Positions 1 through 48,230 of a DNA stretch of 64,000 bases are shown piece after piece (the first letter of the stretch is position 1; the number at the start of each line of letters is the position of its first letter). A model generated the notes under the pieces. That model made no database searches. It was not told the origin of the DNA and saw only the letters and a program-made list of their open reading frames with translations. Source of the DNA: Phormidium tenue FACHB-1052 (lineage in GTDB: Bacteria; Cyanobacteriota; Cyanobacteriia; Phormidesmidales; Phormidesmidaceae); NCBI RefSeq assembly GCF_014696675.1, contig NZ_JACJQN010000015.1, positions 1 to 64,000 on the forward strand, in the 5' to 3' direction. A program made the position numbers and the translations under genes.

Positions 1-36
1 GTCTAGCGTTTTTTGGAATTCCAAAAAACGCTAGAC
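1..36. repeat. Perfect 36-bp palindrome, candidate hairpin telomere
   Basis: Bases 1-18 (GTCTAGCGTTTTTTGGAA) are the exact reverse complement of bases 19-36; the centre is GGAATTCC with no unpaired loop. The symmetry starts at base 1 itself, as expected if the sequence record begins inside an assembly that read around a covalently closed hairpin end. A telomere-resolvase-like gene lies at 6010-7962. Known resolvase targets are perfect or near-perfect palindromes of a few tens of bp. Alternatives are an operator or a transcription terminator. The palindrome is seen; the telomere role is inferred. Confidence 0.6.
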
Positions 37-539
37 TACAATCGCTATACCCCTATAAAGCATTCTTATATCTCTATTGCTTATACCTTTATATCCTTTA
101 CCGCGATCCCCATTATGCGATCGCGTGGGGGTTATCTCTATCCTAAAGCCCTGAAACCCTTATACACCAATACTTCCAGCCGCCTGCACCTTCACTGCGA
201 TCCCCAGCGATCCTCAGACTCATATAAAAAATCTCTATATTTTAGACTGCTATTATATTAATTTCTCATATGTATATCTGCTTGAAGTGGGGAGGCATAA
301 GATATTTATATCAGTCAGAGCGAACGAGTTTTCAGTGCTTTCAGCTTCTTGCGGCTGCGATCGCACCCTTCGCCATTGTCCAAGGGGATCCCCAGGCAAA
401 CCACAAAAACACCCAAAATTATTGCTGTACAAGGATTATAGGCAACTGGCTAATTGACCGCATAACCCCTAGACTGCTATTGCATATTTATTGCAGTTAA
501 GTTATCATGTAGCAGTCAGCCAAACGGGAGGAACACCCC
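37..539. other. AT-rich gene-less segment (possibly subtelomeric)
   Basis: No convincing gene is seen. The stretch is rich in short degenerate motifs of the type CTATACCCCTATA, CTTATATCTCTA and TTATACCTTTATAT, plus HIP1-related GCGATCC/GCGATCGC words. The two open frames in it (13-261 and 270-500) give peptides with no family resemblance, no ribosome binding site and low-complexity composition. Such a non-coding, degenerate-repeat zone would fit a subtelomeric region if base 1 is a real replicon end. Confidence 0.5.
446..517 (+). promoter_or_regulatory. Promoter-like region with inverted repeat
   Basis: TTGACC is followed after 18 bp by TATTGC, a weak -10, inside the word GACTGCTAT. GACTGCTA (472-479) is repeated in inverse orientation as TAGCAGTC (510-517), a dyad just upstream of the small gene at 540. 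The word GACTGCTAT also occurs at 245-253 and in the promoter of the resolvase gene (5956-5964), so a shared regulator is possible. The dyad is seen; the regulatory role is inferred. Confidence 0.35.
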
Positions 540-686
540 ATGACCATCGCCACCACCACCCGCAACCCGGAAGTGAAGCGCCACCTCGCTCTAGGGCTAG
601 ACCCCAAAGATTTGCAATTCCTCAGCAGCCCGCAGCAGCCCCCTCAACCCCCTGCTGAAACCTATATGGGCTTCTCCATCGAATAG
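540..686 (+). CDS. Small hypothetical protein (48 aa)
   Basis: ATG at 540 is preceded by a strong ribosome binding site (GGGAGGAACACCCC-ATG) and the frame runs to TAG at 684-686. The peptide begins MTIATTTRNPEVKRHLALGL, has a basic N-terminal half, then a Pro/Gln-rich stretch (SSPQQPPQPPAE) and ends GFSIE. There is no membrane segment and no recognised family. It is the first gene inward from the palindrome and lies 61 bp before the next gene on the same strand, so the two may be cotranscribed. Support is the ribosome binding site and codon pattern; the function is unknown. Confidence 0.5.
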   Translation: MTIATTTRNPEVKRHLALGLDPKDLQFLSSPQQPPQPPAETYMGFSIE

Positions 687-747
687 CTCCCACTGCCTGC
701 CCTCAGCGCCATGAGGGCTCCCCACCCCACACTTTGAGGCATTCCCC

Positions 748-1338
748 ATGAACACCACCCAAGCACTCTTTACTCCCCTGGTAGCCCCCTACGCCACCGC
801 CGCTACCATCCTGGCCACCACTGCCCGCAACACCTGGCAAGCCCTGCGCAGCGATCGCGCCATCGACCTCTACCGCACTCTCTCAATCCTGCTCCAGATC
901 GCTGGTTGGCTGGCCTATATCGCCTGCCTCTTGACCCTTCAAGGAGGCAAGGCCGCTCGGCGCTACTACGAGGCCGAATGGGCTACTGAGGTGGGCGCGC
1001 TGGCCCTACGCATCGATCGCGCCCTAACCCCCCTCGATGGCGGCGCTACCTTGCCCCAGGCGGACGAATTGCCCCAAGACTCCCCCTGCACCCCTGCGCC
1101 CGATCGCGTCGTTGACCCTGCGGTGGCCCTCGATGCCGCTGCCACTATCCACCCCGACCAGGTGCAGTCCGTCCTCAACAGCACCGGAACCTCGACCAAC
1201 AAACTCCGCGCCCTCGCCAACCTCATCAACCTCCCATGGCGGCACTCCAGAGGAAAGGGCAAGCACATGAGCAACAGCGACATCCGCTCAGCCCTAGCTC
1301 CCTTGATCGCCCCTGACCTACTCGCACAGCTCTCCTAA
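748..1338 (+). CDS. Hypothetical membrane-anchored protein (196 aa)
   Basis: Not recognised. One hydrophobic segment at about residues 45-64 (LSILLQIAGWLAYIACLL) could anchor it in a membrane. It is followed by a short amphipathic stretch, a Pro/Asp-rich linker (about 95-130) and a basic C-terminal domain (about 140-196) with the segment TNKLRALANLI. ATG at 748 follows a short pyrimidine-rich leader with weak ribosome binding. HIP1 sites lie inside the gene, so it is native to the cyanobacterial background. It sits with the small genes at 540 and 1436 on the same strand and ends just before a hairpin. Confidence 0.6.
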   Translation: MNTTQALFTPLVAPYATAATILATTARNTWQALRSDRAIDLYRTLSILLQIAGWLAYIACLLTLQGGKAARRYYEAEWATEVGALALRIDRALTPLDGGATLPQADELPQDSPCTPAPDRVVDPAVALDAAATIHPDQVQSVLNSTGTSTNKLRALANLINLPWRHSRGKGKHMSNSDIRSALAPLIAPDLLAQLS

Positions 1339-1344
1339 ACACCT

Positions 1345-1373
1345 GGCCCCTGGGTGTGTTTCGCCCAGGGGCC
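1345..1373 (+). terminator. Hairpin terminator candidate
   Basis: GGCCCCTGGG and CCCAGGGGCC form a perfect 10-bp stem with a 9-nt loop, 7 nt after the stop codon of the gene at 748-1338. No long T-run follows, so termination may be weak or factor-dependent. Confidence 0.5.
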
Positions 1374-1435
1374 TGCGCGATCGCATCCTCTCCGACCGCT
1401 ACAGAGACAACTGACACCCCTATCACCTGAGCATC

Positions 1436-1648
1436 ATGAGCACCACCATCTTTGAAGCAACCAACGCCCAGTACTACGCCCTGGAAAAGGCCAAAGAGGT
1501 CTTTGGGCGGCAGTGGAAATCGAAATTAAAGGTCTGCTGGGAAACGGGGATGTACCCCCGCTCTCTGAGCCAGTACAGGGCTGAGCTTCAGCAAGTCAGG
1601 AGCGGCGGCGGGCCGTCCTGGTTGAGCAAGTTCCAATTCGACGGCTAA
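1436..1648 (+). CDS. Small conserved cyanobacterial-type protein (70 aa)
   Basis: A 70-aa protein with the layout YYALEKAKEVFGRQWKSKLK ... YRAELQQVR ... GPSWLSKFQF. From memory, short proteins with this pattern (aromatic-Ala-Leu, GR-W-KSKL, then a GPSWL-K-F tail) recur in cyanobacterial genomes without assigned function. It has basic and aromatic residues and no membrane segment. ATG 1436 overlaps ATGAGC context with no strong ribosome binding site (CCTGAGCATC). It lies between the hypothetical membrane gene and the PP-loop gene on the same strand. Function unknown. Confidence 0.55.
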   Translation: MSTTIFEATNAQYYALEKAKEVFGRQWKSKLKVCWETGMYPRSLSQYRAELQQVRSGGGPSWLSKFQFDG

Positions 1649-1722
1649 TCACCTGGGGCTGCTATAGCCCCCTCCGGCAGGTTGCGATCGCAGCTCCCCC
1701 GTACTCTCCCCTCTTGGCCACC

Positions 1723-2973
1723 ATGACTTTAGCCGTTGATCAAATCAGCCTTTTCCCTGAGGCAGAAGGACTCTACCTACCCCCAGTGATTCAGCAGGCC
1801 ATGGACATGGGCGCTGCCTTGGTGATCTCCGTGAGCGGCGGCAAGGACTCCGACGCCATGCTGGTGGCCACCGTGAAAGCCTACCGAGAAATGGGCTGGA
1901 GCGGGCCTATCTTCGCCCTCTTCTGTGACCTGGGCCGCATCGAATGGGCTGGGGCATTGGAGCATATTCGCAGCCGCTGCGATCGCCTGGGGGTACGACT
2001 GGTCGTGGTGAAACGGCCTCAGGGTGGACTCGTCGATCGCTGGCGACAGCGCTTTGAGGCAATAGCGGCCAAACCAGGAGGCGACCCCAACAGCGAGAAA
2101 GTCGGGAATGCCCCCCTGTGGAGTTCATCGCAAAATCGCTACTGTACAAGCCACCTCAAGGAGCAGCAGGCCGATAAGGTACTCAGGAAAATTGGGAATG
2201 CCCCCCTGTGGAGTTCATCCCAACATCGCTACTGCACCTCTGAACTGAAGGAGGGCCAAGCCGATAAGGCGTTGCGATCGCATTCGCTGGTCATCTGCGC
2301 CCTCGGCATCAGGAAGGAGGAATCGAGCAATCGGGCTAAGAAGCCGGGGGTTTGGGTGCGCCCTGGGCCGACAACAAAGGCTCTCAAGGAACCGGCTGGG
2401 ATGACGGTGGCAGGTGAACGAGAGCAATGGGCCGCTGATGCACTCTCTAGCTGGCTGGAGTCGGGCCGCAAGGGGCGGTTGGCGCTCAACTGGCTTCCGA
2501 TCTTCCGTTGGCCCCTACAGCGGGTCTGGGAGGAGCTAGGCGTGTCTCTCGACGAGCTGGAGCAGCGGCAACAGCTATTCGCAGAGGGGAACTACTATGA
2601 CGCCCTCGACGGCTTCCCCGGCCATTGGGTCTACGTCTCCGGCAACTCCAGGATGAGTTGCTCGATGTGTGTGCTGGCCAGTGGTTCAGATATTCGCAAT
2701 GGCGCGATCCTCAACCCGCTCACCTGGCTGGAGCTAGCCCTGCTGGAACTTGAATCGGGTTGGAGCTTCAAAGCCGATCTGTGGTTGGCGTCTTTGGCTG
2801 AGCTGGTGACCCGGTTCCCCTTGGAAAGGCGTAGACGGCTCCTTCAAGCGCTCTATGACCTCAACCGGGTGCGGCGCTGGCACCCCTCTTACGCTCTGTC
2901 TCTGCTGGCCTCTCTCGCCCCTGCTATGACGATGTTTTGGTCTGAGGCGTTCTTGTCCTTCCTCAAGGATTGA
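1723..2973 (+). CDS. PP-loop / PAPS-reductase-like nucleotidyl-transfer protein
   Basis: The N-terminal part carries the PP-loop ATP-pyrophosphatase signature SGGKDSD (about residues 38-44), typical of the PAPS reductase/DndC-type fold, which adenylates or reduces a sulfur-linked substrate. The downstream motif RYCTS-LK is the family's substrate/Cys region. Unusually it is present twice in tandem: residues about 126-155 and 156-185 are near-identical 30-aa units containing NAPLWSSSQ. A C-terminal Cys pair (SCSMCVL) may bind a metal. ATG at 1723 is chosen over the in-frame TTG at 1714. Plasmid and phage homologues are often linked to DNA modification or thiolation, but no dnd partner genes lie next to it, so the substrate is unknown. 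Confidence 0.75.
   Translation: MTLAVDQISLFPEAEGLYLPPVIQQAMDMGAALVISVSGGKDSDAMLVATVKAYREMGWSGPIFALFCDLGRIEWAGALEHIRSRCDRLGVRLVVVKRPQGGLVDRWRQRFEAIAAKPGGDPNSEKVGNAPLWSSSQNRYCTSHLKEQQADKVLRKIGNAPLWSSSQHRYCTSELKEGQADKALRSHSLVICALGIRKEESSNRAKKPGVWVRPGPTTKALKEPAGMTVAGEREQWAADALSSWLESGRKGRLALNWLPIFRWPLQRVWEELGVSLDELEQRQQLFAEGNYYDALDGFPGHWVYVSGNSRMSCSMCVLASGSDIRNGAILNPLTWLELALLELESGWSFKADLWLASLAELVTRFPLERRRRLLQALYDLNRVRRWHPSYALSLLASLAPAMTMFWSEAFLSFLKD
2098..2277 (+). repeat. 90-bp tandem duplication inside the PP-loop gene
   Basis: Positions 2098-2187 and 2188-2277 are in-frame 90-nt copies. They share GGGAATGCCCCCCTGTGGAG and differ at scattered sites later on. Both encode K-(V/I)-GNAPLWSSSQ-x-RYCTS-x-LKE-x-QADK. 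The duplication doubles the RYCTS motif of the PAPS-reductase-like fold without breaking the frame. The divergence between copies suggests it is not an assembly slip. Confidence 0.85.
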
Positions 2974-2995
2974 AAGGACTTCCCTCGGTCATGCC

Positions 2996-3905
2996 CCAGG
3001 CGCTGCTAGTGGGCCTCCCCCGGTGCCGCTGCCGCTGGCCCAGGCGATCGCCCTGGCGCTGCATGGACTGGGGGCGCTGCTGGTGGCCATGGACAGGGAA
3101 CTGCGCGGCCTGGGGGTGGCCTGGGGCGCTGCTGGCGGTGGTGGTGACGGTGGCTCTGGAGCTGCTGGTGGGCGGTGCAGCTGGTGTCCCCCCCCCTGTG
3201 GGACTCATCCGCTGCCCCCGGTGCGCTGGCTGAGGGAACTGCGCGGCCTGGGGGCTGGCGCTGGCCCCGGTGGTGGCGGTGGCTCAGGAGGGGCTGGTGG
3301 GCCTCCCCGGTGCGCTGACGATCGCGACGGGGTGCTACACCATCTGACCCTGGCCCAGGCGCTGCTGGTCGGCGGTGCAGCTGGCAATCGCGCCGGGGAA
3401 AGCTGCACGACCTCGGCCTGTCGGTCACGGCAGCGTGGTGGCCCAGTCGCGGGCGAACGGGGCGGCGGTGGTGGACAGCGCCCCAGGAGGTGCTGGTGGT
3501 GCCCCTCCCTTGTGGGCCTCATCCGGCTACCCTTGGGGCCAGCACCCCAAGGGGTGCAGCTGGGGGCGATCGCTCCGGGAGAACTGCGCGGGCCTCGGCG
3601 GCGGTGGCCCAGGCGGGGCGGGTGGGGCGGGTGGGGCTGGCCCAGGCGCTGCTGGTCGGCGGGGCGGGAGGCGATCGCAACCGCTGGGCCTCAGTCTGCC
3701 GTTCATGGTGGTGGACGGCACCCCAGGCGGGGGCCAGTGGCCAAGGGAGGGCTGGGGGGCCTCCCCTGGTGCGCTGGCGACGGTCGAGCCAGGGCGGCGA
3801 TCGCTCCGGGGAGAACTGCACCGCCTGCCGGTCAGCGCAGTAGTGGCGACGGTGGCGGTGGCCTAGGGGGTGCTGCTGGGGGTTCGGTAGGGCGGGGGGC
3901 GATCG
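2996..3905 (+). repeat. GC-rich, G-skewed mosaic repeat tract
   Basis: About 0.9 kb of extreme GC content with strong G bias on the plus strand, made of shuffled short direct repeats. Examples are CCCAGGCGCTGCTGGTCGGC near 3355 and 3642, GGGAACTGCGCGGCCTGGGG near 3096 and 3231, and GGGAGAACTGC-type words near 3578 and 3807. HIP1 octamers are scattered through it. All frames are open because stops are rare at this GC, giving Gly/Pro/Arg-rich pseudo-proteins; none has a credible start, ribosome binding site or family. I treat it as non-coding repeat DNA of unknown role between the PP-loop gene and umuDC. Confidence 0.6.
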
Positions 3906-3987
3906 CATGGGCAGACTGCTGCTGCTGGGACTGGTCACTTCCCTCTTGTGGGCCGCCGCCAATGTCAGCCGCCGCCCAAAGGTTTTG

Positions 3988-4001
3988 AGTTCATCTGTAC
4001 T
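3988..4001. promoter_or_regulatory. LexA (SOS) box upstream of umuDC
   Basis: AGTTCATCTGTACT matches the published cyanobacterial LexA operator RGTACNNNDGTWCB at all but one defined position (T for A in the first half-site). It lies about 60 bp before the umuD start, overlapping a promoter-like TATACTG at 4001. A LexA operator in front of umuDC is the expected arrangement in bacteria. Confidence 0.65.
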
Positions 4002-4061
4002 ATACTGCTCTAACGAGTTCCACTCCATGGTTCAAATCCTTAGCACACGCGGCTTTTACAG

Positions 4062-4478
4062 GTGCTCTACCGCTGTTGCGCTGAAGGACGTTTTGCTGTG
4101 TTTATCGTCACTGTCCCCGCTGGGTTCCCCTCCCCGGCGGAAGATTATGCTGAGGGGCCTCTCGACCTAAACCGCTACCTCATCCACCATCCCGCCGCGA
4201 CCTTCTTCGTACGGGTTAAGGGCGACTCGATGGCCGGGGCTGGCATCTTCTGTGGGGATCTGCTGATTGTGGATCGGGCGCTCAACCCTGTCCCCGGCAA
4301 TGTGGTCATTGCTGTGGTGAATGGCGATCTGACGGTGAAGCGTTTTCACCAGGAGGCCGGGCAGATCTGGCTGATGCCTGAGAACCCTGACTATGCCCCT
4401 ATCGTGATTGACTGCTATACCGACTTCGCCATCTGGGGTGTGGTCACGAAGGCCATTCACTTCCTGGGGGGCTCATGA
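4062..4478 (+). CDS. umuD: UmuD-like SOS mutagenesis protein (S24 peptidase)
   Basis: 138 aa, the normal UmuD length. UmuD is a dimer that cleaves itself when stimulated by RecA filaments; UmuD' then joins UmuC as DNA polymerase V for translesion synthesis. The cleavage site is A20-G21 in the context PAGFPSPA (E. coli UmuD has Cys-Gly here). The catalytic dyad is visible as S56 (KGDSM) and K93 (LTVKRF). The start is GTG 4062, supported by alignment length to the family. The stop overlaps the umuC start (ATGA), so translation is coupled. A LexA-type operator upstream indicates SOS control. Confidence 0.9.
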
Positions 4479-5737
4479 TCGCTTTGGTCGATTGCAATAA
4501 TTTCTACGTGTCCTGTGAGCGGGTGTTTAACCCCAAGCTGGAGGGCAAGCCGGTGGTGGTGCTCTCAAACAACGATGCTTGCGTGGTGGCCCGCTCCAAT
4601 GAGGTCAAGGCGCTAGGTGTGAAGATGGGTACCCCGCTGTTTGAGCTGCGTTGGTCAGAGACCGGCCCAGGAGGGCCATCGCTCATTCAAGAGCACCAGA
4701 TCCAGGTCTTTTCGAGCAACTATGCCCTCTATGGCGACCTGTCGCGGCGGGTGATGGAGGTGCTGGGGCAGTTCTCTTCTGAGGTTGAGGTCTATTCCAT
4801 TGATGAGGCATTCCTGGGTCTTGCGGGACTGTCCTGTGAGATAGTGGCCCACCACATGCGGCTGACGGTGAAGCAGTGGACGGGCATTCCGGTTTCGGTC
4901 GGGGTGGCCACCACCAAAACGCTGGCCAAGATCGCCAATCACCAGGCTAAGCAGCAGGGGGGTGTCTGTGTTCTGCACGAGCCAGCGCCGGTGCTGGCCC
5001 AGTTGCCGGTGTCGGAGGTGTGGGGCATTGGGCGGCGGCTCTCTCAACGTCTGGTGGCTCACGGCATCACTACGGCCCTGCACCTGCAACAGGCTGACCT
5101 GGCCCTGATCCGGCAGCTGCTCGGCATCGTTGGGGTCAGAACGGTTCTAGAGCTGCGCGGGGTGGCCTGCCTGCCCCTGGAGCGATGCCCTCAACCCCGA
5201 AAGAGCTGTTGTGTCTCTCGCGGCTTTGGGCGGCCTGTGGTGTCTCTGGCGGAGCTGAAACAGGCGATCGCTTCCTATGGAAGTGCAGCAGCAGAAAAGC
5301 TCAGGCGCGATCAACGGGTCGCTCAGTCTTTGCAGGTGTTTATTACCACCAACCGCTTTCGACCGCAGGAGCCGCAGTATGTCAATTCAGAGGCGATCCG
5401 GTTGCCTTTCCCCACTCATGACACTCTGACGATCGTACAGGCGGCGTTGGGGGCCGCTGAGCGGTTATATCGGCCTGGGTACGGCTATCACAAGGCCGGG
5501 GTGATGATGATGGATCTGAGCGACGGGGCGATCGCGCAAAGGGATCTCTTTGTCGAGGAGGGTAGAAGAGAAAGGGCGGGGCGGTTGATGGTGGCGATCG
5601 ATGCGCTCAATCAACAGTTTGGGGCTGGGACGGTGCATTGGGCCGCTGAGGGGTTGCAGCAGGAGTGGAGAATGCGGGCGGAGTGGCGATCTCAACGGTT
5701 TACGACTCGGTGGGATGAGTTAGCGGTGGTGAGGTAG
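4475..5737 (+). CDS. umuC: UmuC, DNA polymerase V catalytic subunit (Y family)
   Basis: 420 aa, full length for UmuC. Y-family polymerase signatures are present: the first metal-binding motif in [16 protein letters not shown], the steric-gate/fingers stretch [15 protein letters not shown], and the catalytic YSIDEAFL. A helix-hairpin-helix region ([12 protein letters not shown]) and the little-finger and DUF4113-type C-terminal parts follow ([28 protein letters not shown]). It replicates past lesions with UmuD'. Its start overlaps umuD by 4 nt. HIP1 sites within the gene suit long residence in a cyanobacterium. Plasmid-borne umuDC commonly raises host mutability. Confidence 0.95.
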
Positions 5738-5815
5738 ATGGCGATCGCTTCCCTGATATCGGTAACACCGCTTCCGATTTCAACTCGCTGTCCTGTGGGG
5801 GATTGGGTCGCAAAA

Positions 5816-5839
5816 AGCCCCCGGTCTATACCAGGGGCT
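5816..5839 (-). terminator. Strong hairpin, minus-strand terminator form
   Basis: AGCCCCTGGT-ATAG-ACCGGGGGCT forms a 10-bp stem (one G-T pair) with a 4-nt loop, followed on the minus strand by TTTTTG. In the plus direction the stem follows umuC but is preceded by the A-run. It could insulate umuDC from leftward transcripts and also act as the umuC 3' end. Confidence 0.6.
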
Positions 5840-5935
5840 GAGGTGAAATTCTATGGGGCTATTCTACCCTTCACCGATGGCCCTACCCTACTCCAGTCCG
5901 GGCTACGCCTAACTCAACCAGCAAAACATTCTAGG

Positions 5936-5967
5936 TTGACCGATATAGTTTTATTGACTGCTATAAT
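5936..5967 (+). promoter_or_regulatory. Promoter of the resolvase gene
   Basis: TGCTATAAT at 5959-5967 is a perfect extended -10 (TGN-TATAAT), 43 bp before the start codon at 6010. TTGACC at 5936 is a consensus -35, though the 20-bp spacer is long; the extended -10 may compensate. The shared word GACTGCTAT links it to sequences near the left end (245, 472). Confidence 0.6.
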
Positions 5968-6009
5968 TAAACCTGTAGATGATGCCGTTCCGTTCAACTA
6001 TCCATAGCT

Positions 6010-7962
6010 ATGGCCTCTCTATCCCAAACCTTCGACACCACCCGCAACGAAATCGTCGCCGCAATGGAGCAGCGCATCGATAAGGGCGATCGCACCAAGC
6101 TGACTAAGAAAGACCTGGAGGAGTTGATCGCTATCCTCGTGGCCAAGCTGGTGGAGATGAATGCCCTTGGCACTGACACGAAGGCGGCAATCGATCGTCT
6201 CTGTGCGGCGGAGCAGGAGCTATTGGAGAGGGCTTATCCCCGCAGCAGTATCAATTCGGTCTATTTCCCGCGCTACACAAAAGCGATTAAATCCGCGATT
6301 GAGGCGGGGCGTATTACCCTCAATGGCAAAAATTCGTACCCTCGGCGGTGGGCGAAGCGCAATCCGCTGCCGGGGGAGCCCAGCAGCGGCTCTGAGGCGC
6401 GACACTATGCCTTAGACGGGTTTATCTACCCCATTGAGGTGCAGGCGCAGCTCAGAGCCGCTACCACCCAAAATGCCAATGCTCGTCAGGATGATCGTCA
6501 ACCCGTCGATCTCGATGCCTATATGGGCAAAATCAATCTCCTATTGGCCTCTAATGACCCCATCGATTTAATCATCGCGATCGCTGCCGTGACCGGAAGG
6601 CGGCACACGGAGGTGGTCAGTCTCGGGCAGCTCCAACCCCAGGTCGGGGAGATGGCTCAACTGATTCCCCAGGGGCATCCTTACTTACTTCGCTTTACGG
6701 GGCAGCAGAAAGCGGCGAAGCCTGCCTACGATTTGCTGACGTTGGTGCCCGCCCAGGATGTTTTGCTGGCGATTGAAAAGCTCAGGGCTGCCGCTGACAT
6801 TCATGACCTGGCTGGGGTCGCCTCGGATGACCCCAGGATGGAGGCGCTCAATGCTCGGGTGAATCGTCGAGTGGTCAAGGTGCTCGGTGAGGTGCTGCCG
6901 ACGCCTCAAGGGTTTACCAATATTTCGATTCATCGCTGCCGGGCGGTCTATGTGCCGATCTCCCTCCATTTCTTCTGCCCGGCCAATATGGCGGAGCAGC
7001 GTCTGGCTCAGCATCTCCTCGGCCATGTGCTATTTGATGACACGACTACCGGCAATGCCTCGGTGACGGGCCATTACTACCAGTATTATCTGACGCGCAA
7101 TGGGAAGCCGCTTACCGCTCGCGGGGTGAAGCTGGCCGCGAGTGGCCCCATTCCTCTGCCGCCCGATGAGATTGACGCACCCGTTGAACCATCCCCTACA
7201 GAAAACCAAGGAGCATTGACCGTGGCTGATTCTCTTCCCGCTAAGACAACACCGAGTTCGCAGGTGAATGGGGCTGGGGAGGGTGACCCGGTTTGGGCGA
7301 CGATCTCATCTCAGGCGGCGACAATCTCCACTCAGGCTCAAACCATCTCGGCTCAGGCGGCGACGATTGATCGCCTGGCTCGCTCGGGCGGTGGGCAGGG
7401 TGATGATTCAGAATTCAAGGCGTTGAAGGCCGAACATGCACGGCTATTGGCAATGCTGGATGAGTTGAGGGCGATCGCTGATGACCCTAACCAACTCCAG
7501 GCTGCTCAGCGCTTCTTTGCCTTCGATTTTGACCGCGAGGGCGATGCGCTCGATGACGGGGGGGCTGGGACTGCGGTGGGGTCACCGGCTGCGCCATCAG
7601 CTACGACACTGGCTGTGTCTAGACCCGCTCGGACTAAGGATGAGGATGACAGCGACCACGATAAGGCCCAAGACACGAAGCCCTATCAGCGCGGGGTGCG
7701 ACTCCTTGAACTCGCTCAGCTGTGGGCGCAGGAACATCCCGATGCGACGGTCAAGTTCTCGGGGGCCTTACTCAAGGCCGTCGGCGTTCATGCGGCGGCG
7801 ATTAAGGCCATTACCACCGATCTTGAGGGTGATATTGAGGCCTTCAATAAGTCTCTGGGTGATGACTCCCTCAAAACCCATAACAAGGGCAGAACCGAGC
7901 CCTTCCTCAAGTTCGCAGCCGAAATGCTACAGAATGAAGGCCTCTATAACCCCAGAAGCTAA
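6010..7962 (+). CDS. Telomere resolvase (protelomerase)-like tyrosine recombinase
   Basis: 650 aa, close to TelN/TelK in length. The central domain follows the protelomerase order: TGRRHTEV (R197/R198), RFTGQQKAAK (K234 or K237), then HRCRAVYVPI around R311, which resembles the RA(V/I)YA block of telomere resolvases, then LGH (H339) and HYYQYYL, where the nucleophile is probably one of Y356-Y360. The enzyme would cut the palindromic junction of replicated ends and rejoin strands into hairpins. Residues about 420-450 hold heptad-like TISSQA/TISAQA repeats, then a charged linker and a C-terminal domain. The gap between H339 and the tyrosines (17-21 residues) is longer than in TelN. A palindrome at base 1 is a candidate substrate. 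A generic tyrosine recombinase is the alternative. Confidence 0.75.
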   Translation: MASLSQTFDTTRNEIVAAMEQRIDKGDRTKLTKKDLEELIAILVAKLVEMNALGTDTKAAIDRLCAAEQELLERAYPRSSINSVYFPRYTKAIKSAIEAGRITLNGKNSYPRRWAKRNPLPGEPSSGSEARHYALDGFIYPIEVQAQLRAATTQNANARQDDRQPVDLDAYMGKINLLLASNDPIDLIIAIAAVTGRRHTEVVSLGQLQPQVGEMAQLIPQGHPYLLRFTGQQKAAKPAYDLLTLVPAQDVLLAIEKLRAAADIHDLAGVASDDPRMEALNARVNRRVVKVLGEVLPTPQGFTNISIHRCRAVYVPISLHFFCPANMAEQRLAQHLLGHVLFDDTTTGNASVTGHYYQYYLTRNGKPLTARGVKLAASGPIPLPPDEIDAPVEPSPTENQGALTVADSLPAKTTPSSQVNGAGEGDPVWATISSQAATISTQAQTISAQAATIDRLARSGGGQGDDSEFKALKAEHARLLAMLDELRAIADDPNQLQAAQRFFAFDFDREGDALDDGGAGTAVGSPAAPSATTLAVSRPARTKDEDDSDHDKAQDTKPYQRGVRLLELAQLWAQEHPDATVKFSGALLKAVGVHAAAIKAITTDLEGDIEAFNKSLGDDSLKTHNKGRTEPFLKFAAEMLQNEGLYNPRS

Positions 7963-7982
7963 GCGACGGCTTCGCTATCTAA

Positions 7983-8372
7983 TTAGGCGTCGTCTTCATT
8001 GCCCTCTTCGTCAAGTTTAACCAAGTGAATGTGTTTGTAGCCCAGCTTGATTTTGAACTCATCGCCAGTCTTCAAACCCATCTCTTGGGTATAGGCTGCG
8101 CCAATCACAATCTGTCCATTCTTGTGCACAGTTAGGGTGTAGGACGCTTCTCGGCCCCGCCCATCTGAACTCTTCTGGGGTTCGAGCTGAATGCCTTTGG
8201 CGGACAACAGGGCATCGTAAAACTCAGATAGGTTCACACGGGTCTGACCATCTTTGCTGACGGTGTAATACCCGCATTCCTTAGCGAGTTCCCGTTTGCT
8301 CCGGCCATCATTCTCTTTCACCTTGGCTAGAAGATCTTTGCCAACCAACACGTCTTTCTCTTTTACTGCCAT
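7983..8372 (-). CDS. Cyanobacterial AbrB-family regulator
   Basis: 129 aa with the cyAbrB layout: an N-terminal helical region (GKDLLAKVKENDGRSKRELAKECGYY) and a C-terminal swapped-hairpin DNA-binding domain (YTLTVHKNGQIVIGAAYTQEM-LKTGDEFKIKLG). Cyanobacterial AbrBs put this domain at the C-terminus and act as global regulators, including of nitrogen and bicarbonate genes and of plasmid genes. It converges on the resolvase gene with only 20 bp between stops, and the par-like operon lies upstream on the same strand. ATG at 8372 has weak ribosome binding. The target set is unknown. Confidence 0.85.
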   Translation of the reverse strand: MAVKEKDVLVGKDLLAKVKENDGRSKRELAKECGYYTVSKDGQTRVNLSEFYDALLSAKGIQLEPQKSSDGRGREASYTLTVHKNGQIVIGAAYTQEMGLKTGDEFKIKLGYKHIHLVKLDEEGNEDDA

Positions 8373-8524
8373 AACTTAGAACGCCCAAAAAATATAGGTC
8401 AAAATCCTAAACAATCCACAGGAAATGATTCCAGAGGCTTTTAAAATTTCTTTCCTACTTTATCTAATAACTTGAATAAAAAGACAGAGGCTTTCATCCC
8501 CTATGGCTCAGATGGCGCGTTGCT

Positions 8525-9187
8525 CTAATCATCCTCGACTATCCCCAGCCAAATTTCGATGCGCTCTAGACGGCGATCTACCGTTCCGCCACTAGCGCGG
8601 ACTTCGCTCAGGGCTGTCTGAAACCCGCTGCCTCGGAAGATGAGGTACTGAAGCACTCCCATCACCGCTGTTCCCATCAACAACCACACCACCGCCGCTC
8701 TCCATTGCGCGAGTTCAGTCCAGATCGACGTTCCGCTTCCGCTTCTTTGGCAGGCGCTGCGCTGAATCAACCGACGCAGCGCCTGCAATTCCGCCTTGAC
8801 TTCGGTTGTGATCTGCGGATCGGTCACCGGGTGCACCTGGCTCCCGAGTTTCTCCATCTCCACGATCAAGCTGGGCAGCGATGCGGCTAAGGTCGTCAGT
8901 GGCCCTTCTGCCCGCTTCAACATCACCTCTGATGACACCAAGTATTGACCAAACCGTACCAAGTGTTCTCCGAGTGTCCTGTAGCCGCTGCTCACTTCCG
9001 CGGTCTCCTGGGTGCGCACCTCCAGCAGCCGCGATAGGCTCTGTGTGATCTCCTGCCATTGGTCTAAACTCACACGAATGTGGGCAACGTCCTGATGGTG
9101 AACTCGCTCTAGGGCTTCCATCCGCAGTAGCAGTTCATGCAGAACGGTTTCAATACTGGCAATATCCTCAACGCTTTGCTGCCCCAT
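8525..9187 (-). CDS. Coiled-coil protein with C-terminal membrane segment, in par operon
   Basis: 220 aa, not recognised. The first ~110 residues are helical and coiled-coil-like (IETVLHELLLRMEALERVHH, LSRLLEVRTQETAEV). A single hydrophobic segment lies near residues 167-186 (AAVVWLLMGTAVMGVLQYLIF). It ends RRLERIEIWLGIVEDD. Its ATG abuts the ParA stop codon (TAA-ATG), so translation is coupled to ParA. The architecture resembles plasmid mobC/MbeD-like or DUF-type helper proteins. A role in tethering a partition or transfer complex to the membrane is inferred from context only. Confidence 0.6.
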   Translation of the reverse strand: MGQQSVEDIASIETVLHELLLRMEALERVHHQDVAHIRVSLDQWQEITQSLSRLLEVRTQETAEVSSGYRTLGEHLVRFGQYLVSSEVMLKRAEGPLTTLAASLPSLIVEMEKLGSQVHPVTDPQITTEVKAELQALRRLIQRSACQRSGSGTSIWTELAQWRAAVVWLLMGTAVMGVLQYLIFRGSGFQTALSEVRASGGTVDRRLERIEIWLGIVEDD

Positions 9188-9976
9188 TTACACCGCCTCA
9201 GCAACAGGAACAGGTAGGCCGAGCAACTGTCCATTTGCCTCTATCTGGGCACTACCACGACGAACAAACGACCGTGCCAGCAACTTGTCTCCCAAGGGCA
9301 GGCTGTCGAGAGCCGTGAATGGTGTGTAGTTGGCTTGCATGGCCTTAAAGGTGGTATCGGCCAATCGTGGCAGCTCAATCTCGACTCCCCCATACTTCTT
9401 GACTCGCTTGCGTTCTTTTGACTCGTCCCATAACGAAAATGCGTCTTTCAGTCCGTCACTGGCAAAATACTGGTTCTTAACCACCACCCAGCGAACCGTG
9501 TCGCCGCAGAAGTCCAACATTCGGCTAATCGACTCAATCGGCGCATAGCTAGTGCTAATCACGCTGATGATCGTCACGCCATACCCCATCTCGCCACAGG
9601 CTGGAATCAGGTCAAAGACATCAATTTGCTCCCGCAATCGGGTACTTGAGGCGGCGGGCATATCCAAAATCACCACGTCAGCTGGGCAGCGACGGGCCAA
9701 TGCTGGCAGTCGACTGGCCACTGAGGTCGCGACTTCTCCCGACAGCATTGTCACCAGGTTTTTACCGCCATCTAATGACAGGCAATCCATTGTCGGCACT
9801 GCAAATCGCTCTGGGTCGGCGTGGAACGATGAAAATTCTGGATTCTCTTGATCTGAGTCAATGCCAATCACCTTTGACCCGGCGTTATCTAAGGTCGCGT
9901 AGAGCAACCGCGCAAACAGCGTTTTACCGGTTCCACCCTTCGCACCATTGATGATGTTTACAGTTTTATTCGACAC
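9188..9976 (-). CDS. ParA/MinD-family ATPase
   Basis: 262 aa with the deviant Walker A box GAKGGTGKT (residues 11-19), a switch-like IDSDQ-NPEFS stretch and Walker B-like VVILDMPAA. ParA ATPases position plasmids by forming gradients on the nucleoid; related members assist DNA transfer. The start is GTG 9976 after the ribosome binding site GGAGG. It lacks the N-terminal HTH of type Ia ParA, so it is of the short (type Ib or orphan) class. It lies 42 bp after the 174-aa gene and abuts the membrane-anchored gene downstream. The tandem repeat array upstream could be the centromere. It differs from the second ParA at 54920-55753. Confidence 0.85.
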   Translation of the reverse strand: MSNKTVNIINGAKGGTGKTLFARLLYATLDNAGSKVIGIDSDQENPEFSSFHADPERFAVPTMDCLSLDGGKNLVTMLSGEVATSVASRLPALARRCPADVVILDMPAASSTRLREQIDVFDLIPACGEMGYGVTIISVISTSYAPIESISRMLDFCGDTVRWVVVKNQYFASDGLKDAFSLWDESKERKRVKKYGGVEIELPRLADTTFKAMQANYTPFTALDSLPLGDKLLARSFVRRGSAQIEANGQLLGLPVPVAEAV

Positions 9977-10018
9977 GGGACAATCCCTCCAAACGACACA
10001 TTAACCATCTAATTTTGT

Positions 10019-10540
10019 CTAGCCATCCCAGTGGGTAGGCGGTCTAATGCCGGGCCGCCGTGGCACTTGAAACCCCGAGTCCCCGCCGTTAGCAGCCGTT
10101 TTTTTTCGGCCTCTGCTTGGAGCGACAGCTGGGTCTTTTGGTATATCAGCAGCAAGCTGGGCCTTATCCTCGCCAGCATCACTAACACCGGCAGGCTCAA
10201 CTACAGGCGGTGACTTAGTCGCATCAGACTTGCTCTTGCTCTTGCTCTTCTTCTTTTTCTTTCCACCAGATTCAGCCTTAATTCTGTAGTAGTAACGTTT
10301 TAGAGTAGATGCACTAATAGAAATCTCCTGACCTGTAATAGTCTTAAAAGAAGTCATCACTTGTTTTGCGGTAACACCCCAGTCTTTTTCATTTACTCTA
10401 AATAGGGTGATTGCATCAAAGCAGTCCTTAACAACTCCATAATTAGTAAACTCCTCACCTCTATTTGCCAACTGTTGCATAGGCGCACTATCAGTAATAT
10501 GATTACTAACTTTCTCCCTAATAGACTCAGTTAAAGTCAT
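10019..10540 (-). CDS. Putative DNA-binding protein of partition/relaxosome operon (173 aa)
   Basis: Not assigned to a family with certainty. Residues about 1-95 are compact and helical, with the pattern TAKQVMTSFKTITGQEISISASTLKRYYYRIKAE, which resembles a helix-turn-helix with a recognition helix ending in YYYRIK. A Lys/Ser run (GGKKKKKSKSKSKSD) follows, then a disordered Pro/Ala-rich tail. ATG at 10540 is preferred over TTG 10543; GAGG precedes it. It is the first gene of a minus-strand operon with ParA and the membrane coiled-coil protein, and its start lies 20 bp from the 24-bp repeat array. A centromere- or iteron-binding role is inferred. Confidence 0.6.
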   Translation of the reverse strand: MTLTESIREKVSNHITDSAPMQQLANRGEEFTNYGVVKDCFDAITLFRVNEKDWGVTAKQVMTSFKTITGQEISISASTLKRYYYRIKAESGGKKKKKSKSKSKSDATKSPPVVEPAGVSDAGEDKAQLAADIPKDPAVAPSRGRKKTAANGGDSGFQVPRRPGIRPPTHWDG

Positions 10541-10560
10541 CAATAAAACCTCAATCTAAT

Positions 10561-10905
10561 TCACCTTTGGCGTTCACCCTTTAGTCACCTTTGGTATTCA
10601 CCTTCTAGTCACCTTTGGCGTTCACCTTCTAGTCACCTTTGGCGTTCACCTTCTAGTCACCTTTGGCGTTCACCCTTTAGTCACCTTTGGTATTCACCCT
10701 TTAGACACCTTTGGCGTTCACCCTTTAGACACCTTTGGCGTTCACCCTTTAGACACCTTTGGTATTCACCTTCTAGTCACCTTTGGTATTCACCCTTTAG
10801 ACACCTTTGGTATTCACCTTCTAGTCACTTTTGGTATTCACCCTTTAGACACCTTTGGTGTTCACCTTCTAGTCACTTTTGGTATTCACCTTCTAGTCAC
10901 CTTTA
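10561..10905. repeat. Fourteen 24-bp tandem repeats (centromere or iterons)
   Basis: Fourteen uninterrupted 24-bp units run from 10561 to 10896, plus a partial fifteenth. The consensus is [T/A]CACYTTTGG[CG/TA/TG]TTCACC followed by CTTTAG or TTCTAG. Within each unit CACC occurs twice, giving half-units of about 12 bp, so binding sites would repeat on nearly the same DNA face. There are no spacers, so it is not a CRISPR array. Placement directly upstream of the 173-aa protein/ParA operon and before the mobilisation genes suits a plasmid centromere or a replication iteron set. Confidence 0.85.
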
Positions 10906-11121
10906 AAAAATATTTTTCCTTTGGCAAGTTGTGGCTACCCTAGCACCTTGTCATTCACTTATACTGGCAACTACAACAGAGAAGTTTTCCGATATTCTTC
11001 CTGTTCATAACTTAAGATCACTCCCCCAAACTCACCTTGGATAGTAGCCTTCGAATATCTCCCCCATATCGCAAGTCGACCTTTTGGGGCAAAGAATTGT
11101 TAAGCGTTCACTGTGCCAATC

Positions 11122-11442
11122 ATGACTACCTCACGTAATACCCGCATCGTGGTCAACGTTTCTGAGGCTGAGGCTAGAGCCATTCAGCGGGCGGCCCATC
11201 CAGCACACCCGGCAACCTTCCTCCGCAACCTCGGCCTACGACCACCACCAGCTACGGTCACGCATCGAGAGGTGTATGCCCATCTCAGCCGGTGGAATCA
11301 ACAGGTGGATGACCTCCGGCGACGTTACGCCACGGCAGCACCCCCCTCTCTACTCCAAGACTTGAGAGACTTGCGGCAGTCAATCTTAGAAACACAGCGC
11401 ACCTTAATCACACCTGTCCCTGAGGGCGATCATGCTGATTAA
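11122..11442 (+). CDS. MobC-like relaxosome accessory protein
   Basis: About 106 aa. The N-terminus (TRIVVNVSEAEARAIQRAA) looks like a ribbon-helix-helix strand plus helix, then a Pro-rich link (ATFLRNLGLRPPP) and a helical C-terminus (LLQDLRDLRQSILETQRT), the pattern of MobC/MbeC-type relaxosome proteins. ATG 11122 is chosen; an in-frame GTG at 11113 is possible. The stop overlaps the relaxase start by 11 nt, as in classical mobC-mobA pairs. The about 200 bp between the repeat array and this gene is the likely place for oriT, but I could not identify a nic site. Confidence 0.7.
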   Translation: MTTSRNTRIVVNVSEAEARAIQRAAHPAHPATFLRNLGLRPPPATVTHREVYAHLSRWNQQVDDLRRRYATAAPPSLLQDLRDLRQSILETQRTLITPVPEGDHAD

Positions 11443-12610
11443 GATCGTTAAAGGCAGCAACGCCCACGGGCTTTGTTCCTACCTACTTAACCCGGCCAAA
11501 CAAACGACAGCCAGTAGCGCCCATCCAATCATTGCTACCAATATGGCGTGGAGCAATCCAGAGGGCTTGGCTCGTGAATTTGACTGGGTAACCTCTCGCC
11601 CTCGGCAACGTCCTGTGAAGCACACCATGGCTCACCTGATGGTTAGCCTCTCACCAGGAGAGCACGTTGCTCCAACTCAGATGGCTGACATCTCCCTGAA
11701 GATTTTAGACAGCATGGGCTACGGGGAGTGCCCTTTCTTTGTCACCCAGCATCATGACAAAGCGTCTGCTAATGGGGTGCAGCATTGGCACATTGCTACC
11801 ACCACCATTGATGTAGAAGGTGCTTGGGTCAAGGATAGCTTTAGCAAACTCAAACTTCAACATCTGGCTCGACAGCTAGAGCACGATATGGGCCTTATCC
11901 CCCTCTCTGTTGCCTCACCACGGCAGCGGCAAAATCTCACCACGGGTGAGTATCGGCGTAAGGAACGCACGGGCGAAATCCTGCCCAAGGAGATGATCTG
12001 GGATGAGATTAACCGCGCGACAAACGACAACCCTACCTTGTCTATGCTGGTGACCCGGCTCAAGGCTAGCGGTATTGAGGTTCACCTGCGACAGATTGCC
12101 TCTCCAGGGGAAAAGCCTGCCTTCACGGGTATTTCCTATTCCGTTGATGGCCATTCATTTGCCGGTCGTCGCCTCGGGCCTGCTTACTCCCTGAAGGGTC
12201 TCCAGATGCACCGACAGATTGAGTATCGCCCCGACCAAGATGCGGTGCTGGCTCAAGTAATGGATATGTCTCAGGCTCAGTGTCAGCAGCAGCTCGCCGA
12301 TTACGAGGCGCTGCGGCAGCTTTGGAGGGAACGCTACGCGCGTTACGCTAGAGCCGTCCAAGGCGGCTCTGGTGAGCCCCAAGGGGGACAATTAGATGTC
12401 GAAGTTGCTCAACTTGCTGTCTCAGATGGAGAACCCACAAAAGACATTGTGGGCATCCTCCGGCAGGGGCCAACGGCGCAAGCCCAACGCCTGAACCAGG
12501 GCCACTATGCGGCGCTGGAGTACTGCCAACAAATCGCCAATCAACTGACCCACCGCCACAGTGATCCCATACTTCAGCCAACCAGAAAATCTCTAGAAAT
12601 TGAGCTTTAG
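11432..12610 (+). CDS. Relaxase / mobilisation nuclease (MobA/VirD2 type)
   Basis: 392 aa. The relaxase domain fills residues 1 to about 250. The N-terminal MLIKIVKGSNAHGLCSYLLN carries a likely nucleophile region, and the metal-binding His cluster is visible at HH (107-108) and QHWHIA (118-120). The C-terminal part is helical and ends near TQRLNQGHYAALEYC-like sequence. Relaxases nick oriT and pilot the single strand through the T4SS. Its start overlaps the mobC-like gene. T4SS genes occur at 57-64 kb and probably 34.7-39.5 kb, so the replicon may transfer itself. There is no obvious helicase or primase fusion. Confidence 0.85.
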   Translation: MLIKIVKGSNAHGLCSYLLNPAKQTTASSAHPIIATNMAWSNPEGLAREFDWVTSRPRQRPVKHTMAHLMVSLSPGEHVAPTQMADISLKILDSMGYGECPFFVTQHHDKASANGVQHWHIATTTIDVEGAWVKDSFSKLKLQHLARQLEHDMGLIPLSVASPRQRQNLTTGEYRRKERTGEILPKEMIWDEINRATNDNPTLSMLVTRLKASGIEVHLRQIASPGEKPAFTGISYSVDGHSFAGRRLGPAYSLKGLQMHRQIEYRPDQDAVLAQVMDMSQAQCQQQLADYEALRQLWRERYARYARAVQGGSGEPQGGQLDVEVAQLAVSDGEPTKDIVGILRQGPTAQAQRLNQGHYAALEYCQQIANQLTHRHSDPILQPTRKSLEIEL

Positions 12611-12782
12611 CTAAAGCTTTGTTTTTTGGCAGAACGCTGCACAGCATTCTCAATCCGAGGCATTGGTCATGAGCACTTATACTCTGTGCCAGTAGCGCTA
12701 AAACGTGGACTAGCTTCGGACTAGGCGGCCTTGTGCCAGTTGTCTCAATGCCTGGTTTTCCCGTTCTTCCTAAAAGTTGCTG

Positions 12783-14121
12783 CTAAAGCTCTCGATTGGC
12801 CTGGATGCCTTGCGTAGAGAGAGCTTTAGCATAAGATGCAGCTGCGGAGGGGTTGCGGCGCGGGCAGCTAAACCAGAACTCAGAGTTATTTCCTTGGTGG
12901 TGCAGAAAACTCATGGCAGTCTCAACATGAGAACGTAACGACCCTAGCGAACTCAATACGGCAGTCCAAGGCGTCTCGTTTGCACTGAGAAGCGCAGGCA
13001 GGCGTTGGATTGCACTTAGGCAAGGTTTGGAGGATAGGCAGAGGCAAGCGCTCACAGCCGAGCCGAGCCAGTTCCCGCAGACCCAGTTGCAGAAAACTCA
13101 ATACCCGCTCGCTATGTCAAGCCAGACGAGTCCGATGGCCTGCCTTAACGACCATCATGCCCAATACCAGGGCAATTAGATAGGCGCAATCTAGCAGCAT
13201 AAACAAACGGGTCAAGACACCCGCATCACGTAGACCTGAGTCGAGGACATCTAAGACCGCTGACTTGTAATCCTTAAAGTGGGGTTCAATCCTCCCAAAG
13301 CGTTGGCCGTAGAGCGCAAAGGTTTGCAACGAGGCGGATTGGCTTGATAGTACCGCCCAGGTGTCTTGAGCACCAGGCACATTGGCAGTTGCCAGATGAG
13401 CCTCAATATCGCTTAACACCTGCACAGGCCCCACTAGATAAACCTGTTCTGGCGGTGGAAAGAAGCCCTCTACCGATTGCGTTCGACCGTCTAATAACCG
13501 TCGGAGGTAGTGACCAAAAGTCTGACTTTACCCGAATAGCCCAGTTCCACGTCTGTCTGTTCAACCAGCGTGTCAACTCACCATGTTTCTTCTGCGGAGA
13601 CGCTTCGCGAACAAACCCTCGGTCGGCCAGCAACGTCACCTGCACCTCCTGCGGTAGGACGGACGGTTCGAGCGAGCTCTAGCACAGGCTTATACTGCTC
13701 AAAGCCCACCAGGGCACTGCCGTGCTCAAGCACCACTTGAGTCAAGATCAATGAGGCAAAAGCGATCCCATAGCATGCTGGTGTCCAGAGTCAGGATAAT
13801 GGCCTCTCCGGCAAAAGCCGACAGCACTTGTCGGAGTATCGGTTCGTAATACCGTTCCGCTGTGATCTGCGGGTTATGGAGAAAATAGCTCAGCCGCTCC
13901 ATATGGGCACGGGCACCGCAGCCTCGATGCGATAAGTAAGGGATCCACCGACCTAGACATGCTTCGTCAGTCTGTAACACTGCTGCCACAATTTCCGTAA
14001 ACCCTTGCAGATGCCGTTGGTCAATGGGCTGCACCCATTGACTCAATTGGTCTTGCAGTTGACGATACAGTCCCGTGTTTCTATGAAATTGGCCTTGAGT
14101 TGGGGAATTCAAGCCTCTCAT
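12783..14121 (-). pseudogene. Decayed IS4-superfamily transposase
   Basis: Three minus-strand fragments read in order as one transposase. 14121-13726 is an N-terminal part (MRGLNSPTQGQFHRNTGLYR, then ILTLDTSMLWDRF with the first catalytic Asp). 13645-13403 is a middle part (TLLADRGFVREA, the second Asp region). 13434-13117 and 13055-12783 are C-terminal parts. Frame changes and stops separate them, so it is inactive. It borders the RiPP island on its 3' side. Terminal inverted repeats were not identified. The exact IS subgroup is uncertain. Confidence 0.75.
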
Positions 14122-48190: not shown

Positions 48191-48230
48191 CTCATGCCAG
48201 AACAGGAATATATTCCTGTTCTGGCATGAG
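48191..48230. repeat. Perfect 40-bp palindrome
   Basis: CTCATGCCAGAACAGGAATA (48191-48210) is followed directly by its exact reverse complement (48211-48230), no loop. After 6 nt comes T7 and then the ATG of the YaaW-like gene (48243). It could be a terminator for the small TM gene, an operator, or a recombinase site; the centre AGGAATATATTCCT resembles resolvase target centres in type but not in sequence of the arms. Confidence 0.85.

Follow-up and report, generated by a model that had tools for sequence, protein, structure and literature searches.

A palindrome at a true contig end

The left border of this DNA poses the question of whether base 1 is the tip of a linear replicon that is closed by a DNA hairpin. 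A preliminary description had proposed such a telomere on the strength of a perfect loop-free palindrome starting exactly at position 1, a protelomerase-like gene located 6 kb inward and a lack of genes in the next 500 bp, and from the letters alone it could not see whether base 1 was a real end. The whole stretch analysed here (64,000 nucleotides; referred to as the window) corresponds to bases 1 to 64000 of contig C7; window and contig thus begin with the same base, which is a true contig end. This contig derives from a draft assembly of 5.82 Mb in 36 contigs, on which both its length of 172,842 bp and the contig order rest. All three of the features described were recovered: bases 1 to 36 (GTCTAGCGTTTTTTGGAA/TTCCAAAAAACGCTAGAC) consist of two arms of 18 bases with 100% complementarity and no spacer, such that the axis of symmetry falls between positions 18 and 19; the first conserved small open reading frame (ORF) begins only at 541; and the gene 6 kb inward has a clear match to a protelomerase family (Table 1).

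The probability that an 18-base arm starts at one specified base is approximately 4^-18 (1.5e-11, with all bases equally frequent). Among 40 order-1 random windows of equal size, the longest palindrome at any position was 12 to 22 bp, and the edge palindromes at 20 further contig starts of this genome were 0, 2 or 6 bp in length. Two further long palindromes were detected inside the window, one of 40 bp at 48191-48230 and one of 28 bp at 55521-55548. The former is perfect, loop-free and intergenic, is followed by a run of T residues and has the appearance of a terminator. The presence of these internal palindromes indicated that a palindrome as such is no proof of a telomere; the evidential weight lies in the position at the edge and in the matching partner at the opposite end of the contig. 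Bases 19 to 36 are most likely the terminal bases of the replicon, with bases 1 to 18 being read-through round a hairpin onto the opposite strand.

Table 1. Features of the left arm, the window and the adjoining part of C7 (window positions unless prefixed by C7)
Feature	Position	Strand	Evidence or remark
Telomere palindrome	1..36	.	Self-complementarity; same core at C7:172806-172835
Left terminal arm	3..12870	.	Inverted-homologous to C7:161921-172840 (right arm, beyond the window)
Subtelomeric A+T-rich conserved stretch (TATACCCCTATAAAGCATTCTTATATCTCTATTGCTTATACC...)	37..125	+	Identity between the C7 ends and across genomes
Small conserved ORF, 48 aa, first CDS inward of the telomere	541..687	+	Largely the same sequence, with the same start and stop, in the C7 right arm and in C21
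ORF, 196 aa, in both arms	748..1338	+	dN/dS 0.37 between arms
UmuD-like subunit of DNA polymerase V	4062..4478	+	NCBIfam NF007621, E 1.7e-47; right-arm copy
UmuC-like subunit of DNA polymerase V	4475..5737	+	NCBIfam NF002955, E 1.4e-125; right-arm copy, dN/dS 0.21
Telomere resolvase (protelomerase), 650 aa	6010..7962	+	PF16684, E 1.6e-38; profile match to TelA
AbrB-like transcriptional regulator, both arms	7983..8372	-	PF14250, E 7.4e-32; dN/dS 0.10
ParA/MinD-like partition ATPase, both arms	9188..9976	-	PF01656, E 5.1e-6; dN/dS 0.07
MobA/VirD2-type relaxase, both arms	11432..12610	+	PF03432, E 5.6e-21; dN/dS 0.22
VirB4/TraC-like conjugation ATPase (weak match)	60484..63351	+	TIGR02746, E 6.1e-9
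Type IV coupling protein	C7:70725-72602		PF10412, E 6.9e-30

Both ends of the contig

The other end of the replicon had been suggested as the place to look for the same palindrome, and the right end of C7 was indeed found to close with the same core. Read inward, this end has the sequence TGTGGCCTAGCGTTTTTTGGAA TTCCAAAAAACGCTAGGCCACA, which forms a perfect palindrome of 44 bp and extends up to the last base (172842). The central 30 bp are identical in the left (36-bp) and right (44-bp) palindromes, while the flanks of the core differ, being GTCTAGC..GCTAGAC on the left and GGCCTAGC..GCTAGGCC on the right, with each palindrome still perfect. As the flanks differ between the ends and each is symmetric in itself, each end reads into its own complement and not across a left/right circular joint. 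A whole-genome search with 3 mismatches allowed detected only the two symmetric sites and, at the level of the 5.8-Mb assembly, no hybrid left/right joint.

These findings bear on a circular replicon in which the palindrome would be an internal terminator or cruciform and the contig would have broken there by chance. Assemblies do break at palindromes, and perfect loop-free palindromes do exist inside the window (that of 40 bp at 48191, with its T-run), but a circle would require the same core inverted at both ends of C7, inverted arms of 11 to 13 kb and the same coincidence in other genomes, and the mixed joint is absent from the assembly. We considered a circle to be extremely unlikely and rejected it on the grounds that the palindrome at either end takes in that end's own flanks and that there is no hybrid joint.

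The natural reading of the two termini is that each end of C7 runs on into its own complementary strand, which would be produced either by a covalently closed hairpin or by an unresolved inverted dimer of identical sequence. According to the second of these possibilities, the replicon would be mainly a circular head-to-head dimer, with a real palindrome at each junction and no hairpin ends; junction and hairpin yield the same self-palindromic reading. The presence on C7 of two apparently selected resolvase genes argues against such a dimer, as do the linear plasmids of Nostoc sp. N6, which follow the same logic and for which hairpins were inferred from library behaviour (PMC5987646) and of which at least pNPM8 carries a protelomerase-family gene. 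We regard the dimer as very improbable. With hairpin ends, the last 22 bases of C7 would be read-through and the physical tips would lie at 18/19 and at 22 bases from the right edge.

Conservation between the two ends is highest next to the tips. Over the first 109 bases inward from position 17, or from the axis, the C7 ends share 93% identity, compared to 76% over the outer arm, and this same stretch of 109 bases is 85 to 87% identical in three other genomes. An identity of 93% in the outermost 109 bases is as would be expected for a site recognised by shared machinery, and the A+T-rich stretch may form part of a putative binding region for the resolvase or for a telomere protein.

The same telomere element in other genomes

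Relatives of the resolvase were located in nine places. The closest ones belong to Nodosilinea and Leptolyngbya, and the host of C7 is probably a Nodosilinea-type cyanobacterium. Two of these nine loci are on contigs that start at the edge with the telomere element, namely contig 29 of Nodosilinea LEGE 06152, with a 36-bp palindrome (GTCTATCGTTTTTTGGAATTCCAAAAAACGATAGAC), and contig 83 of Leptolyngbya FACHB-60, with a 42-bp palindrome (GTGGCCTAAAGTTTTTTGGATATCCAAAAAACTTTAGGCCAC), and in both the resolvase gene lies approximately 5 kb inward of the palindrome. In a member of another genus of the same family (G068), contig C432 terminates in a palindrome of 72 bp that shares the 22-bp core, and this genome too encodes a resolvase. 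The substitutions among the palindromes of these relatives are symmetric (TAGCG/CGCTA to TATCG/CGATA and GGAATTCC to GGATATCC); changes matched on either side of the axis are expected if one strand is copied around the tip.

A finished plasmid, pGLO7428.02 of Gloeocapsa PCC 7428 (NC_020051; 201,822 bp), was deposited as linear and carries a ParA gene and a protelomerase gene whose product has 42% identity to the resolvase over the match. A perfect 36-bp palindrome, TACATTGTTATATTGGAATTCCAATATAACAATGTA, is present at both of its ends. The centre TTGGAATTCCAA is common to this palindrome and to the telomere of C7, and is thus shared between enzymes that are about 42% identical. The two plasmids differ in their arms: the terminal repeats of pGLO7428.02 are 1,340 bp in length and 100% identical, with one resolvase outside them, whereas C7 has diverged arms of 11 to 13 kb with a resolvase in each. 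The linear plasmid of Gloeothece PCC 7822 has no palindrome at its deposited ends, and this record lends no support.

An assembly or library artefact, in which an adapter, a linker or a chimeric inversion ends the contig, was weighed against this distribution. Artefacts collect at contig edges, and the palindrome centre (GGAATTCC) contains an EcoRI site and resembles an EcoRI linker. However, contigs of at least three separately assembled genomes, and one finished linear plasmid, terminate in this element, the adjacent bases (approximately 110) are conserved across genomes, the symmetric variants, including GGATATCC, are inexplicable by an adapter and other contig starts of this genome lack the element. 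The adapter or linker explanation was rejected on account of the symmetric variants in other genomes and the absence of the element from other contig ends, and an artefact of any kind is hardly credible.

In several relatives (PCC 7104 and LEGE 07298), the resolvase gene was found on contigs without a visible telomere, and in a genome of the same genus (G013) it is situated inside a chromosome-size contig, which indicated that a resolvase gene alone is no proof of linearity. Matches to PF16684 above the cut-off were detected in 19 of the 59 genomes searched and also in a Synechococcus elongatus control genome. Resolvase-domain genes are therefore common in cyanobacteria, many of them being on contigs without a visible telomere.

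Several further arrangements were observed near such sequences. In G013, two contigs of 498 kb and 5.46 Mb have at each of their four ends a telomere half-site that is fused, 2 nt past the axis, to the terminus of a TniA/TniB (Tn5053/Tn7-like) transposon (L066:1-3164 on G013:C7; L064, L083 and L085 on G013:C1). Tn5053 inserts at res sites, and the G013 transposon could be one that targets the target sites of the resolvase. The larger contig (G013:C7, 5,458,963 bp; L066:1-6551 versus L084) has an inverted terminal repeat of at least 6.5 kb that is 100% identical, includes the subtelomeric sequence and recurs with 98% identity at the two ends of the 498-kb contig; this contig is either a linear chromosome or a product of two inverted repeat copies breaking the assembly. 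A TniA-TniB-TniQ gene set also lies no more than 1 kb from the 72-bp end palindrome of G068:C432 (L086:1945-6012), making this, in a different genus, the second telomere observed beside a transposon of this type. A single-contig cyanobacterial genome of 4.68 Mb contains a perfect inverted repeat of 3,079 bp whose arms are separated by one base and each carry a gene with a protelomerase domain (G052:C1:2110111-2116269; L142); this structure may be a hairpin end that was misassembled or an inverted dimer that has integrated.

The telomere resolvase

The product of the gene 6 kb inward was examined for features of known telomere resolvases. Its match to PF16684, the ResT/TelK catalytic domain, scored 132.5 bits against a cut-off of 27 and covered profile positions 2 to 175 of 181. 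The catalytic domain spans residues 163 to 347 approximately; the C-terminal part that follows is long, coiled or disordered, and finishes in a conserved module. In the PDB, a profile of 11 cyanobacterial relatives matched TelA (4dwp, E 1.4e-25), TelK (2v6e, E 4.3e-21) and ResT (8vs5, E 6.3e-11); a profile built from only the three copies of this genome matched nothing there. An AlphaFold prediction based on seven close relatives had a mean pLDDT of 38.8, which was too poor for a fold search.

Residues R198, K234, H308, R311 and H339 align with R255, K286, Y363, R366 and H394, the catalytic residues named for TelA (PMC3558466). Among the 11 cyanobacterial relatives, R198, K234, R311, H339, Y356 and Y359 are invariant and H308 is almost invariant. 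The alignment of the profile with TelA does not extend to Y405, the TelA nucleophile, and Y356 and Y359 (YxxY) are on the expected side of H339. Either tyrosine is a candidate nucleophile, with Y356 the likelier by its spacing. A score of 19.8 bits was obtained with the TelA equivalog model (NCBIfam NF052462), for which the cut-off is 800; the protein is a distant relative in another branch of the family, distinct from TelA itself. No relatives were detected in the phage collection or the viral contigs searched.

A second resolvase gene, 91% identical, is present in the inverted right arm of C7. Comparison of the two copies gave a dN of 0.05 and a dS of 0.48, a ratio of 0.10.

Diverged terminal arms

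Self-comparison of C7 demonstrated that the first 12.9 kb are inverted-homologous to the last 10.9 kb, giving arms of about 11 to 13 kb. Identity was 76% in the block from 3 to 1700, 86% from 3985 to 10441 and 90% from 10912 to 12870. The left arm has approximately 2.3 kb of extra DNA (about 1700-3985) with a PAPS-reductase-like gene. The resolvase, the AbrB-like regulator, the ParA-like ATPase, the Pol V subunits and the relaxase are present in each arm, and the dN/dS values between arms were 0.07 to 0.37 for genes other than the resolvase. These low ratios indicated that both copies seem to be kept by purifying selection.

Values of dS between strains (0.43 to 0.69) were similar to the dS between the two arms of C7, so that these arms have diverged as much as those of different strains. 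A tree of the resolvases did not group the two C7 arms and did not settle whether they are sisters. The strain-like dS and the lack of grouping suggested either an old duplication that has escaped gene conversion or a separate origin of the arms; of these, a separate origin through exchange of ends between linear plasmids appears the more likely from the sequence comparisons.

A third resolvase-bearing arm was observed on another contig of the assembly (C21; 46,590 bp) at G000:C21:42113-46590 (L011:6114-10591), where it is interrupted by an IS-like transposase. This arm stops approximately 120 bp short of the expected position of a telomere, and C21 probably represents one end of another linear plasmid of this cell.

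The kind of replicon

The relaxase, the coupling protein and the VirB4/TraC-like ATPase indicated a plasmid of the conjugative type. The alternative of a linear plasmid-prophage of the N15 kind, with a telomere that would work in the same way, has in its favour that the best-known enterobacterial hairpin plasmids are phages and that a primase-like protein of C7 matches a phage family. Against this, no convincing phage structural or packaging gene was detected among the sample of C7 proteins searched, the resolvase is without a relative in the phage and viral sequences noted above and the conjugation proteins point elsewhere. The one weak terminase-family match in the sampled proteins is best explained as the VirB4/TraC-like ATPase. 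A phage-plasmid thus found no support in the sampled C7 proteins or in the phage and viral collections, and we judged it to be a highly unlikely identity for C7.

No match was obtained when the first 14 kb were compared to plasmids by megablast. The cumulative GC skew of C7 is lowest at about 38 kb and highest at about 109 kb, with no clean V and no clean single origin. Other genes of C7 include one for a large MmeI/Eco57I-type restriction-modification protein beside helicase-like genes in mid-plasmid (C7:108222-112346; L015:8222-12346), which is possibly phage-defence cargo, and one for a YcaO-domain protein (18255-19613; E 2.8e-79) with a Sir2-like protein nearby (15249-16925), possibly a biosynthetic or defence cluster.

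Discussion

The proposal of a linear replicon with a hairpin telomere gained support from the true contig end, the palindromes at both ends, the relatives and pGLO7428.02. Base 1 is very probably the tip of a 173-kb linear plasmid of which both ends are hairpins of covalently closed DNA. The closure of the ends, the intermediate of replication, the exact positions of the cuts and the activity of the enzyme are features that we infer from this analysis by reference to the mechanism of TelA, TelK and ResT (PMC3558466). Replication from an internal origin would proceed through both hairpin tips and would generate an inverted dimer that carries a full palindrome (...CGTTTTTTGGAATTCCAAAAAACG...) in the place of each tip. 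The left-arm resolvase, whose gene lies 6 kb from the tip, its right-arm twin or both would bind this palindrome, cut both strands around the centre via a phosphotyrosine intermediate, and fold back and reseal each strand, so that two linear monomers with hairpin ends would result. Sequencing reads going round the hairpins would have added opposite-strand bases to the contig ends, 18 on the left and 22 on the right. Judging from the symmetry, the central self-complementary hexamer GAATTC (GATATC in FACHB-60) would take the place of TCATGA in Agrobacterium.

The components of this system resemble those of other hairpin-ended replicons to different extents. The linear chromid of Agrobacterium and the Rhizobiaceae plasmids with TelA share with C7 a PF16684 resolvase with the same catalytic residues, palindromic telomeres and terminal inverted repeats (PMC3558466, PMC13293297); hairpin linear plasmids of Rhizobiaceae were found in a 2025 paper through reads running round the tip (PMC13293297). 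The resolvase of C7 differs from TelA in scoring only about 20 bits against the TelA equivalog model and in the centre of its presumptive target, which is GAATTC or GATATC versus TCATGA for TelA. As in N15, phiKO2 and PY54, with TelN, TelK and the PY54 protelomerase, the resolvase is carried on the element that it would resolve and the target is palindromic, and TelK was among the profile matches; unlike these phages, C7 has two resolvase genes in inverted arms and no phage gene set among its sampled proteins. TelA is a smaller protein of 442 amino acids. The linear replicons of Borrelia likewise have hairpin telomeres and a resolvase, ResT, of the same catalytic fold family. Borrelia ResT is encoded away from most of the replicons that it resolves, and the sequences of Borrelia telomeres are unrelated to those described here.

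Linear replicons are rare in cyanobacteria, and the preliminary description was right that few with hairpin ends have been described, yet they are not unprecedented: Nostoc sp. N6 has three linear plasmids, pNPM8 to pNPM10, with inferred hairpin ends, and two earlier cyanobacterial examples of linear replicons are listed in the same report (PMC5987646). These plasmids resemble C7 in their inferred closed ends and, for pNPM8, in carrying protelomerase-family and ParA genes together with CyRepA1; they differ in their terminal sequence (AAATTAACRGAC) and in their size of 22 to 67 kb. The pNPM8 protelomerase was not matched in a tblastn search with the resolvase of C7. Within the literature collection searched, no paper was found on hairpin replicons of Nodosilinea or Leptolyngbya or on this telomere sequence. 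Hairpin-ended plasmids are thus already known in Nostoc, and C7 is a further and unusually complete case, an end-to-end linear plasmid with both telomeres, a telomere consensus across several strains and genera and matching resolvases.

A wider and more tentative proposal, to which we attach rather low confidence, is that C7 represents a separate class of linear plasmids with hairpin ends in cyanobacteria, in which each arm would be a complete telomere module of telomere, resolvase, partition ATPase, relaxase and Pol V, with the resolvase tuned to its own end. Such plasmids may arise by exchange of ends between two different linear plasmids, and TniA/TniB/TniQ transposons may insert preferentially at their telomeres. 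The resolvase/telomere pair is short and self-contained and is suited to a standard in vitro hairpin assay. Two diverged arms on one molecule constitute a natural test of how linear plasmids gain or exchange ends. These results also suggest that hairpin plasmids occur more often in cyanobacteria than the records show, being hidden in draft assemblies as palindrome-ended contigs.
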